Source: Roseibacillus sp. (lineage in GTDB: Bacteria; Verrucomicrobiota; Verrucomicrobiia; Verrucomicrobiales; Akkermansiaceae). From it: a stretch of 64,000 nucleotides of DNA. Below the pieces are notes generated by a model, which had not been told where the DNA came from, did no database searches, and saw only the letters and a list, made by a program, of their open reading frames with translations. Below, one piece after another: positions 59,456-64,000 of the stretch; the stretch's first letter is position 1, and the number at the start of each line of letters is the position of its first letter. Location of the stretch: positions 62,001 to 126,000 of the forward strand of contig NZAC01000001.1 in the NCBI GenBank assembly GCA_002686085.1, given 5' to 3'. The translations under genes and the position numbers were made by a program.

Positions 59456-60778
59456 TTATATTCTGCGGCCACAGACCTTGCTGAAGTCGTCTTCGAACCC
59501 CGGATAAGAAGTCGCGATGCATTCAGTATTCCGGATGTTGGTTTCTCCGTCAGCAAATAATCCCGCGACACTGAACGCCATTGCGATCCGGTGATCACCA
59601 AAGCAATCCAGGTTCGCGCCACGAAGCTGTGCTCCTCCCTCGATTGTCATTCCATCGTCATGTTCTCTGACATTTGCACCCATTGCTTGAAGGTTTTCTA
59701 CAACGGTGCGAATTCGGTCACTTTCCTTGACCCGCAATTCCGCGGCATCCCTGATGCATGTTGTCCCCTGCGCGAGGGCGCCTGCTACGCCAAGAATAGG
59801 GATTTCATCGATGAGGTTGGGGATTTCTCTTCCCGAGATTTCGGTCCCTTGAAGTTCACTTCCATGAACCTCAAGATCGCCAGCCGGCTCTCCATTCCCC
59901 TCGGTCGTAACGGAATGACCGATTTGCGCACCCATCCTGAGAAGGACATTAAGGACGGCGGTTCTTGTTGGGTTCAGTCCTACCCCTCTGAGTGTCAGGC
60001 TCGAGTTTTTGTTGGCGGCCGCCGCGACGAGCCAGAAGGCCGCACTGGAGATATCTCCGGGGATATCTAAGTCACACGCTTGCGGAGTCTGCCCACCTTC
60101 AATGCTGATCTCATTCTCCTTACATCCGATTCGGATGCCGAAGTAAGTGAGCATCCGCTCCGTATGATCCCTCGTAGTGGCGGGTTGCTCCACGGAGGTC
60201 GTTCCATCCGCAAACAGCCCGGCAAAGAGAACGGCGCTTTTAACCTGTGCACTTGCTACCGGCATGACATAGCGGACAGGGGCCAGCGACCGGCCTCGAA
60301 AAATTAGTGGTGCGCACCCTTCTTTGTCCCCAGTTGCCTCGAGATGAGCACCCATGCCTTCAAGCGGCCTGATTATTCTCTCCATCGGACGAGAGCATAG
60401 GGAGGCGTCGCCCGTGAGAGTGCTCTCAAAGTCCTGACCTGCCAGGATGCCGGCGAGCAGCCGCATACCTGTTCCAGAATTCCCACAGTCGATGACCTTG
60501 GATGGACTGGAAAGGCTCATCGAGGTGCCATGTATTATGATCTCAGTTGGGCCATATTGATTAGTATCGATAGCCTCATATGCTACGCCAAGGCTCTCCA
60601 TTGCCCTCAGAGTGTTGAGGCAATCTTCACTAGGGAGGTAATTGCTAACCCGGGAAGGGCCATTCGCCAGACCTGCAATGATTGCGGCCCGGTGCGAGAT
60701 GCTCTTGTCGCCGGGCACGGTAAGTTCTGCGGAAAAACCTCCAGCAGGATGAATTGTTAGCGAATGAGACGAATTCAT
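59456..60778 (-). CDS. aroA: 3-phosphoshikimate 1-carboxyvinyltransferase (EPSP synthase)
   Basis: Sixth step of the shikimate pathway. It has 440 residues: LTVPGDKSISHRAAIIAGLA at the N terminus (shikimate-3-phosphate-binding Lys/Ser), then NSGTGMRLLAGILAGQ (the PEP-site loop LGNAGT equivalent), ASAQVKSAVLFAGL, DIPGDISSAAFWL, LIDEIPILGVAGALA, LRVKESDRI and CFGDHRIAMAFSVA. The loop reads NSGTGMRL rather than the NAGTAMRP of the classical class I enzyme. Its ATG overlaps the tyrA stop by one base. Confidence 0.96.
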   Translation of the reverse strand: MNSSHSLTIHPAGGFSAELTVPGDKSISHRAAIIAGLANGPSRVSNYLPSEDCLNTLRAMESLGVAYEAIDTNQYGPTEIIIHGTSMSLSSPSKVIDCGNSGTGMRLLAGILAGQDFESTLTGDASLCSRPMERIIRPLEGMGAHLEATGDKEGCAPLIFRGRSLAPVRYVMPVASAQVKSAVLFAGLFADGTTSVEQPATTRDHTERMLTYFGIRIGCKENEISIEGGQTPQACDLDIPGDISSAAFWLVAAAANKNSSLTLRGVGLNPTRTAVLNVLLRMGAQIGHSVTTEGNGEPAGDLEVHGSELQGTEISGREIPNLIDEIPILGVAGALAQGTTCIRDAAELRVKESDRIRTVVENLQAMGANVREHDDGMTIEGGAQLRGANLDCFGDHRIAMAFSVAGLFADGETNIRNTECIATSYPGFEDDFSKVCGRRI

Positions 60779-61638
60779 TACTCTTTGCGATCAAGTGCTC
60801 TGCGTCTATTTTGACCGTCCGCAAGGGCCTTTAAGATCGCGGCTCGATCCTGTTTTGTAAGGTCTTCGGCCATCTGGGAGAGAGTTGAGGCGGCTTCCCG
60901 TATGGGCTCGAGGATTTGAGAACGGTTCTGAAGGAGAATTTCTGCCCACATCGCGGGGTCGCCGGCCGCTACCCTGCTGGTGTCCCGGAGTCCTTGTCCG
61001 GAAAACCGGCCATCCTCGACCCTTTCCAGAGCGGTGAGCGCACATACTGTGGAGAGAATGTGCGGAAGGTGGCTAATACGTCCGACGAGTCGGTCGTGTT
61101 CCTCGGCGTCCATCACTGTAGTCTTTGCACCTAGGTCCTCCCAGAATGCGGCGAGTTGGGTCACCGATTCCTCTGGCTGCTGTTGTTCGTTGGTAAGAAT
61201 ACACGAGGCCCCGAGGAACAGGTCTGCGTCGGCTGCGCCGAATCCAGTCCTCTCCGAGCCAGCCATTGGGTGACTTCCAATAAAGCAGATGCCTTCCGAG
61301 TCCATGAGCTGACCGAGGGATTGGTGCGGCCAGGCTTTTACGCTGCCTACATCTGTCACACAGACGCCCTTCCTTAGGCCAACGCTCAGAATCTTTCGAC
61401 CCAGCTCTTCGAGGCTGTCAACCGGAACAGCCAGAATAACAAGGTCGGCATCAGTGACGGCCTCTTCAAGAATGTCGGTGACATCGGGCAAACCAGACCT
61501 TCTGATTTCGTCGACCCGGGCTGAATTCCTTCCCCAGAGAACTACAGACCGGTTTGGATGCCTCTCGCGTGCTGCCAAGGAAATAGATCCCCCAAGGACG
61601 CCGGGACCCAAGACTGCGATGCGGCAAAATTCAGTCAC
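60778..61638 (-). CDS. tyrA: Prephenate dehydrogenase
   Basis: NAD(P)-dependent step to 4-hydroxyphenylpyruvate in tyrosine synthesis (or arogenate dehydrogenase). About 286 residues from the GTG at 61638; another GTG at 61668 would add ten residues. It has the dinucleotide-binding VLGPGVLGGSISLAAR, ADLVILAVPVDSL, CVTDVGSVKAW, FIGSHPMAGSERTGFGAAD, and the catalytic histidine region HDRLVGRISHLPHILS. There is no C-terminal ACT domain and no fused chorismate mutase. First gene of the tyrA-aroA-cmk-plsC run. Confidence 0.93.
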   Translation of the reverse strand: MTEFCRIAVLGPGVLGGSISLAARERHPNRSVVLWGRNSARVDEIRRSGLPDVTDILEEAVTDADLVILAVPVDSLEELGRKILSVGLRKGVCVTDVGSVKAWPHQSLGQLMDSEGICFIGSHPMAGSERTGFGAADADLFLGASCILTNEQQQPEESVTQLAAFWEDLGAKTTVMDAEEHDRLVGRISHLPHILSTVCALTALERVEDGRFSGQGLRDTSRVAAGDPAMWAEILLQNRSQILEPIREAASTLSQMAEDLTKQDRAAILKALADGQNRRRALDRKE

Positions 61639-61713
61639 ACGAATATCAAGAAAACAAGGCCCGGTCACTCTGACAAGGCCTTCGGTATTTCATCTGGCGC
61701 CCAGAGTGCTGTT

Positions 61714-62112
61714 TCAGGGCACCCGGAACTTGTGTTCCGGATCGGGGTCGTTTGGATCACGTACAAGGGTGCCTGATGGAATGGCCCTTACGTCGACCGG
61801 GTCATTTGTAAATGGATTGAACACGAAGCCCTCCTTACCGGGAATGGGTACTGCGACCCTGTAGTCCTGACGTGGAGGAGGCTCTGAAGCCGGTGTTTGA
61901 GGATCTGGAGCAAGGTCCCCCGCGTTCGGCTCGCTCGGAATCTGGTTGCGAGCATCCCGGAGGTCGGCCTGCTGTCCGGATGTAATGTCCTGTCCTGGGG
62001 CTGGATCAGGGTATCCTCCGCGGGCTCCATTGGGGTTGGGGTAAGGATAGTAGCAGGAACTCATCAATGCCGCGATGAGACTCAGCAGAAAAGGGATATG
62101 CTTGTTCTTCAT
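61714..62112 (-). CDS. Hypothetical lipoprotein
   Basis: 132 residues from the ATG at 62112, chosen because it puts a lipoprotein signal peptide at the N terminus: NKHIPFLLSLIAALMSSC, with the lipobox-like LMSSC and the cysteine at about residue 19. The mature part is low in complexity, rich in Pro, Asp and Asn (YYPYPNPNGARGGYPDP), with a conserved-looking C-terminal stretch GKEGFVFNPFTNDPVDVRAIP. Such small Pro-rich lipoproteins are common in Verrucomicrobiota. Function unknown. Confidence 0.7.
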   Translation of the reverse strand: MKNKHIPFLLSLIAALMSSCYYPYPNPNGARGGYPDPAPGQDITSGQQADLRDARNQIPSEPNAGDLAPDPQTPASEPPPRQDYRVAVPIPGKEGFVFNPFTNDPVDVRAIPSGTLVRDPNDPDPEHKFRVP

Positions 62113-62448
62113 GATTAACGGACAATGCTGAAGGCGGGAAAACCCGCACTTCGCTGTGGCCACATAATGCTTCCGCAATCAGAGGAGTCAAGTCGGGGGT
62201 AGTTCAAAGCACAGGAAGTGACCACAGCAAGTCCTCTTTCCGGCTACAAGAGCGGAAAGACTATATCAAATCGACGGACTTGTTTCGGAACCGGCTACCT
62301 TTGACGAGAAATCGCTCTCGTTCTGCACTCTGCTCGCCCGGTTGCTTTCGGGAGGCTGTATTAAGTATCCTGATTTCGATCCGTCCTGCGCCCTTGGCCC
62401 TAAAGCGATTGCAGTCTCGATCTCGATCTTCCATGATCTTAGGGTCTC
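62113..62448. other. 336-base divergent spacer with an 8-bp hairpin
   Basis: No gene seen; I specifically looked for a selC-type tRNA and did not find one. A perfect stem TCTTTCCG/CGGAAAGA with a 10-base loop lies at 62235-62260. The spacer should hold promoters for the lipoprotein (minus) and for the infA-like/selB operon (plus). The hairpin could sit in the leader of that operon. Confidence 0.4.
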
Positions 62449-62679
62449 ATGCCCGACCCCCCCATCGAAACCAGTGGTATTATTCGGGAAGCGCGTTCCA
62501 AACGGGTTTACCTCGTGGAGCTGATGAATGGTAAATCTATTGTCGGACATTTACCGGGTCGTCTAGCGGATCTTGCCTGCTCGCTTGCGCCCGGGGTTCG
62601 TGTCTGTCTGGAGATGACACCGTTTGACTTTGAAAAAGGCCGGATCGCCGGAATCGCAAAACACCCTGATGAGCAGTAA
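62449..62679 (+). CDS. infA: Translation initiation factor IF-1-like protein
   Basis: 76 residues with the S1/OB fold of IF-1: ETSGIIREARSKRVYLVELMNGKSIVGHLPGRL...PGVRVCLEMTPFDFEKGRIAGI. The VELxNG and TPxDxxKGRI blocks are IF-1 hallmarks. The middle is divergent: the usual GKMRxxxIRIxxGD is replaced by PGRLADLACSLAPGV. This suggests either a fast-evolving main IF-1 or a specialised paralogue. AGGG lies 5 bases before the ATG. The gene overlaps selB by 11 bases, so its translation is coupled to that of the selenocysteine elongation factor. Confidence 0.8.
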   Translation: MPDPPIETSGIIREARSKRVYLVELMNGKSIVGHLPGRLADLACSLAPGVRVCLEMTPFDFEKGRIAGIAKHPDEQ

Positions 62680-64000
62680 ACAGCACTTTATTCTTGGGAC
62701 TGCGGGTCATATTGATCATGGCAAATCCTCTCTGGTGAGGGCTCTTACGGGCACTGATCCCGATCGCCTGCCGGAAGAGCAACGCAGAGGTGTGACAATT
62801 GAATTGGGCTTTGCGCACCTGACGCTGCCAAATCCCGCGGGGCAAGGAAGCGTCATGGAACTTGGGATCGTGGATGTTCCTGGTCATGCAGATTTCGTCA
62901 ATAACATGGTTGCCGGTGTGGGCGGAATGGATGTGGCCCTTTTTGTGGTGGCTGCTGATGACGGTTGGATGCCTCAATCTGAAGAGCACCTTCATATCCT
63001 GACCTATCTGGGAATTGAAAGGACTGTTGTTGCTCTCACTAAATCTGATCTAGCAGAGGACCTCGAGTTCTCGTTGGAGTTCGTGAAGGATGGCCTCAGT
63101 GGCACCATTTTGGAACAGGCTCCTGTGATCCCCGTTTCGTCAACGACCGGAGAGGGCATTGATGTTCTTCGTGAGGCTTTAAGAACCCAGCTCGAGAACG
63201 CTCCTTCTGCCCCGAACTTCGGCAAGCCAGTTCTCCCAGTGGATCGGGCCTTTTCGGTGAAAGGAATAGGAACGGTCGTTACCGGAACGCTTTCGGGGGG
63301 CGCCCTGGATGTTGGAGATCAACTCACCCTTCAGCCATCTGGGCTCAGCACTCATGTCCGGGCTATTCAGAATCATAGTGCCGCGATTGAGCGAGCTGAG
63401 CCTGGTATGCGGACTGCCCTCAGTGTTCCTGATCTCCACGTTGGGACAAGGGAGCGGCAAGGGGTCCGAAGAGGAACCCTTCTAACGGCTGTTGGGGCCT
63501 CGCCACCCCATGACACCATTAACATTCAGGTCACAAGAATGGAGCGGGCTATTCCGGGGCAGCTAGGGACAAAGCGCGATCTTCCCTCAGGAAGAAGGAT
63601 CAGGGTGCACCATGGCTCAGGAGTTATAGGCGCCCGTATGTTCCTCATAGAGCAAAAGTCGTTATCTCCCGGGGAGGTGGCGTTCGCGCAGCTCCGACTG
63701 GATGAGCCACACGCAATGATGGTTGGGGATCGCCTTGTTCTGCGGGACTGGTCAGGAGAGGCAACCCTTGGAGGAGGAGTAATTCTTGATGCTGCTGCCA
63801 GTCGAAAAAAAATAGGAAGTGAGGAGCAAATTCGCTTTCTCAGAACCCGTGCTGATGGTTTTGGAGATCTTTCGCTTCTGCTGGCATCCGTGATCGAGCG
63901 AGACCGCCTCGTTGATATTGCTGAGGAGGCCTCAAGGTTCAGATTTTCAGACCAGGAGGTGGATGCCACTGTGAAGGCAATGTTGACTGCGGAGAGGATT
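62669..64000 (+). CDS. selB: Selenocysteine-specific translation elongation factor SelB (3' part missing)
   Basis: GTPase that delivers Sec-tRNA(Sec) to UGA codons marked by a SECIS hairpin. 444 codons are visible, open to the window edge. The N terminus is [47 protein letters not shown]1 AGHIDHGKS, and the DRLPEExxRGxTIxLGFA stretch that separates SelB from EF-Tu. G3 is [12 protein letters not shown] and G4 is TKSD. Domains 2 and 3 follow ([17 protein letters not shown]...), and the start of the winged-helix mRNA-binding part is reached near the edge. The ATG overlaps the end of the infA-like gene. It implies that selA, selC and selD exist elsewhere in this genome. Confidence 0.95.

Follow-up and report, generated by a model that had tools for sequence, protein, structure and literature searches.

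Gene content of the infA2–selB locus

The window analysed is a stretch of 64,000 nucleotides from the genome of Roseibacillus sp., family Akkermansiaceae. Its right-hand end contains the 5′ part of the gene selB, the gene of an IF-1-like protein, designated here infA2, directly upstream of it, and a divergently oriented block of conserved genes. The following features were annotated (window coordinates):

59456–60778, minus strand: gene of EPSP synthase, aroA, divergent conserved neighbour (Pfam PF00275 and synteny)
60778–61668, minus strand: gene of prephenate dehydrogenase, tyrA-like, divergent conserved neighbour (Pfam PF02153/PF20463 and synteny)
61714–62178, minus strand: small lipoprotein-like ORF of 154 aa between tyrA and infA2, found in the same place in relatives; the homologue has no Pfam match
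62449–62679, plus strand: infA2, encoding a divergent IF-1-like OB-fold protein of 76 aa (Pfam, NCBIfam and PDB matches, AlphaFold model)
62669–62679, plus strand: overlap of the infA2 stop and the selB start, 11 bases, ATGAGCAGTAA
62669–64000, plus strand: part of selB within the window (profile matches; the whole gene encodes 647 aa)

The ATG of selB at 62669 lies inside infA2, the TAA of which ends at 62679; the IF-1-like OB-fold ORF at 62449–62679, sharing 11 bases with the start of selB, was correctly recognized in the sequence-only reading. The last base of selB is G000:C1:126612, which places 612 bases of the gene outside the window; its product contains the GTPase, beta-barrel, wing_2 and wing_3 domains of SelB and matches TIGR00475 with 282 bits, above the cut-off of 242. 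One selB, one selA and a tRNA-Sec with the TCA anticodon were found in the genome, all on different contigs. The presence of full-length SelB, selA and tRNA-Sec(TCA), as in the known selA-selB-selC system, suggests that the Sec pathway is intact, although selA and selC are located on other contigs.

IF-1 is usually regarded as a single, essential and little-varied factor. Two infA genes are present in this genome, and infA2 as its sole infA was accordingly rejected; the selB-linked gene is a paralogue, as had been supposed from the sequence. The canonical copy is located on contig 41 (C41), scores 93.9 bits and has the loop KMRKRFIRL intact (HISGKMRKRFIRL). The infA2 product matches Pfam PF01176 (eIF-1a/IF-1) with 37 bits, above the gathering cut-off of 30.2, and NCBIfam TIGR00008 (infA) with 40.7–41.7 bits, below the cut-off of 61.15, and is therefore IF-1-like rather than a typical IF-1. 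Its PDB matches are all IF-1 (best E-value 5.6e-8). In the AlphaFold model (pLDDT 89) the IF-1 fold is preserved, a five-stranded OB fold with helix 37–45 retained, and the best structure matches of the model in Foldseek are IF-1, among them 4ql5 (TM-scores 0.78/0.86) and 30S-bound 1hr0 (0.75/0.79). Hence, infA2 is a true second infA and, as the genomes described below show, a widespread divergent IF-1 paralogue. Two extra TIGR00008 matches in other genomes were discarded on inspection of the sequences: G017:C135 looks like ribosomal protein S12 and G021:C204 like a spurious frame.

Second copies of infA are known from other bacteria, particularly infA2 of Cupriavidus metallidurans (PMC2864759) and ‘IF-1 2’ of Bordetella pertussis (PMC7742992). 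These genomes likewise contain more than one infA by annotation; in contrast to the window, the passages that name these copies do not mention selB, and the Bordetella copy is listed there in a ribosomal-protein operon. In a literature search whose range excluded most subscription papers, no paper was found that treats either the pairing of infA with selB or divergent IF-1 paralogues in Verrucomicrobiota.

Distribution of infA2 and selB in the family Akkermansiaceae

Among 260 genomes of Akkermansiaceae scanned, selB was found in 69, and in 53 of these infA2 is located directly upstream. The linked pair is represented in six genera of this one family: g1 (14/14), g2 (1/1), g8 (2/2), g9 (23/24), g10 (10/10) and g27 (3/4). 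The sole exception in g9, G255, is probably due to an assembly break, since both genes lie near contig ends; in G246, left out of the selB count, infA2 is followed, where the contig ends, by a truncated selB. The genera g25 (0/13) and g26 (0/1) have selB without the linkage, and about 15 selB-bearing genomes (g25, g26 and G221) carry infA2 elsewhere. The linked pair persists with SelB proteins down to approximately 45% identity, while most other neighbours change. Outside the family, about 45 loci with selB, drawn from numerous families of the class, were examined, and none showed an IF-1-like gene near selB; G028, G029, G032, G034 and G036, from the same order, were among them. The upstream sequence available was 1.2 kb or more for most of these loci and 0.4–0.7 kb for three. 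The pair is conserved across six genera of Akkermansiaceae; among the genomes sampled, an IF-1-like gene beside selB is confined to this family.

The spacing of infA2 and selB varies from the 11-base overlap of the window to a gap of 126 bases. Overlaps of −8 or −4 occur in the same genus (−8 in other members of it) and the neighbouring one, and gaps of 3–126 nt in the others. Of 69 junctions read, in which certain genomes figure repeatedly, overlaps make up 29, and another 30 are spaced by 30 nt or less. Since overlaps and short gaps recur in relatives, the overlap in the window is not a matter of chance. In the SelB tree, the deep branches of which are only moderately supported, the proteins of the family form a group to which the five taken from other families do not belong, and four changes account for the label linked/unlinked; one gain of the linkage with few losses would be the simplest account.

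At least one IF-1-like gene was found in 257 of the 260 family genomes, and at least two in 167 of the 191 genomes without selB. The second copies read out in selB-less genomes are of the infA2 type in the genera g3 (complete genomes), which is presumably Akkermansia, g24, g7, g11, g23, g6 and g5. The gene selA was absent from all 17 selB-less genomes checked, representing seven genera, which therefore have no Sec trait, and present in all 13 genomes checked from selB-bearing genera. Accordingly, infA2 is independent of selB. The expectation that it would be absent from genomes without selenoproteins was contradicted, since genomes devoid of both selB and selA retain it. Of the two findings that the sequence-only reading had named as telling against itself, that of a single infA proved false, while the other, that relatives lacking selB conserve the gene, is essentially true.

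Two apparent links between the fates of these genes were rejected. Five genomes of linked genera (G010, G232, G234, G239 and G245) contain neither infA2 nor selB and were not accepted as evidence of co-loss: selA is retained in all five, the most probable cause being that the assemblies do not cover the locus, not that the genes were lost. The 414-aa neighbour of infA2 in G024, considered as a relic of selB, is a different GTPase, CysN-like on inspection of its sequence.

The usual gene order is aroA, tyrA and the lipoprotein gene leftward, and luxE, luxC and infA2 rightward, followed by selB where it is present; LuxE belongs to PF04443 and LuxC to PF05893. The position of infA2 is mostly the same whether or not selB follows, and the same locus without selB, aroA-tyrA-lipoprotein/(luxE-luxC-)infA2, was found in g7, g23, g24 and g25. 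The genes luxE and luxC are missing from the lineage of the window, where infA2 adjoins the lipoprotein gene directly, from g7 and from much of g24, while infA2 stays. In G032, a genome from a different family within the same taxonomic order, infA2 lies beside tyrA-aroA and selB is on a different contig. The locus kept without selB, together with the arrangement in G032, suggests that infA2 was there before selB.

Several further observations concern these neighbourhoods. In a large part of the family, genes of the LuxE-like acyl-protein synthetase and the LuxC-like acyl-CoA reductase, a fatty-acid reductase pair, are tightly grouped with infA2 (loci L074, L076, L081/L103, L082/L111 and many of L106–L173). 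In genus g3 (L231 and L234), infA2 is more diverged (CPADFDRARV vs. TPFDFEKARI) and directly follows a large ORF whose encoded N-terminus is very basic, away from the tyrA locus. In family f6 (L078 of G029 and L080 of G032), selB lies directly after, or close to, a conserved gene of approximately 206 aa (cluster c35).

Other orders of the class also have extra IF-1 copies, with three or four infA-like copies in some genomes. Most of those sampled have the canonical KMRK-type loop, and for most of them orthology with infA2 was therefore not upheld. A few divergent IF-1-like proteins with a degraded K-x-R-K-x-x-x-R loop were found in other families of the class (L254, L256, L257, L259 and L263).

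Conserved residues and evolutionary rate of infA2

Residues were compared in the numbering of Escherichia coli IF-1 for 119 distinct infA2 and 33 distinct canonical copies from the order. In the canonical copies, K39, R41, K42 and R70 are present in 100%, and position 46 is R or K. In infA2, the share of basic residues is 35% at position 39, 5% at 41, 3% at 42, 8% at 46 and 12% at 70, while N28, G29, D61 and R66 are present in 100%, K30 in 95%, F62 in 94% and H35 in 92%. Thus, infA2 resembles bacterial IF-1 (infA; TIGR00008/PF01176) in the OB fold, length, N28-G29, H35, D61 and R66, and differs in its score under the TIGR00008 cut-off, the loss of K39, R41, K42 and R46 of the helix-loop and of R70, Lys instead of His at position 30, and Phe at position 62.

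In the model of IF-1 on the 30S subunit, K39 and M42 touch G530, R41 and R46 contact A1492/A1493, and H35, Y60, R64 and R66 face S12 (PMC10913371). The proposed comparison of A-site residues with canonical IF-1 turned out against an A-site role: K39 (G530) and R41 and R46 (A1492/A1493), by which IF-1 fills the A site, are mostly gone from infA2, as are K42 and R70, while the S12-facing H35, F/Y60 and R66 are retained. Judging from the aligned residues, infA2 has lost the decoding-centre side of IF-1 and retained the S12-facing side, although H35, D61 and R66 may also be retained for folding.

The rate of evolution was expressed as the infA2 branch length divided by the marker branch length on an AroA+TyrA tree. 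The ratio is 1.16 in linked lineages, 1.42 in unlinked selB-bearing g25, 1.63 in g24 and 2.25 in g7, both without selB, based on approximately 65 columns and few independent clades; that of g24 exceeds the linked one in 98% of 60 column bootstraps. TyrA alone, and AroA+TyrA with an outgroup, gave the same direction, with non-independent pairs and saturation. These values are suggestive of a somewhat stronger constraint on infA2 where selB is present, and its slower evolution in selB-bearing lineages makes a weak case for later co-option.

Origin of the infA2–selB pair

The best account, to which we assign a probability of about 0.7, is that selB settled behind an older, Sec-independent IF-1 paralogue; infA2 is probably not a selenocysteine factor. 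Under this account, infA2 would be an old divergent IF-1 paralogue of Akkermansiaceae, and probably of the wider order, maintained alongside canonical infA for a job independent of selenocysteine. Its usual place is next to the divergent lipoprotein-tyrA-aroA-cmk block, with luxE-luxC before it in many lineages. In one ancestor within the family, selB would have become its downstream neighbour by a single gain, the two frames then becoming tightly spaced or overlapping; this arrangement would have been inherited, and several lineages would afterwards have lost selB or its linkage to infA2. Where they overlap, the two genes are predicted to be co-transcribed and translationally coupled. Since H35, F/Y60 and R66 are kept and the residues holding A1492/A1493 and G530 are lost, infA2 may dock on the 30S subunit near S12 and, unlike IF-1, leave the decoding centre unoccupied, perhaps modulating either canonical IF-1 or 30S complexes in certain conditions. 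The stability of the pair (53/69) and the slower evolution of infA2 with selB count against the Sec-independent reading, and the adjacency of two translation factors would be an unlikely accident.

These same observations, with overlapping frames conserved in six genera and the g24 bootstraps, would agree with co-option, in which infA2 is an accessory of SelB in the linked genera, assisting it, for example, on the 30S subunit close to S12 or excluding IF-1/IF-2 while UGA is recoded, and has its older general role elsewhere. We regard this as unlikely, because the unlinked selB genomes (g25, g26 and G221) retain infA2 elsewhere, the difference in constraint extends to unlinked g25 and is drawn from few clades and about 65 columns, the decoding-centre residues are lost, and the absence of both genes from five genomes, which still have selA, most likely reflects gaps in the assembly. 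Decidedly doubtful is a broader proposal, namely that IF-1 paralogues without the A1492/A1493/G530-binding residues and with the S12 side kept constitute a distinct 30S factor of Verrucomicrobiota, in some genera harnessed to SelB by translational coupling, which would favour UGA recoding.

It is very improbable that infA2 has left translation and serves as a small OB-fold subunit for binding RNA or protein, possibly alongside the LuxE/LuxC products: luxE-luxC directly precede it in many linked and unlinked lineages and its main rRNA-binding residues are lost, but infA2 stays where luxEC is missing and keeps the S12-facing IF-1 signature H35, D61 and R66. Scarcely credible, and already largely refuted, is the suggestion of the sequence-only reading that infA2 is a selenocysteine-specific IF-1 paralogue serving in the A site as an accessory factor of UGA recoding, with which the IF-1 fold and the adjacency to selB agree, but which is unsupported because infA2 is kept without the Sec system, is unlinked in about 15 selB genomes, is absent near selB in all other families sampled, and lacks the A1492/A1493 and G530 contacts R41, R46 and K39.

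For the preferred reading, in which selB joined an older paralogue, the linkage is a clean case of neighbouring translation factors that look functionally tied while the phyletic pattern says otherwise. An altered second IF-1 is present across nearly the whole family Akkermansiaceae, apparently in Akkermansia of the human gut as well. The question of infA2 is testable in cultivable species. The loss of the residues that hold the decoding centre points to a possible undescribed role of this protein, related to the 30S subunit or to nucleic acid binding.
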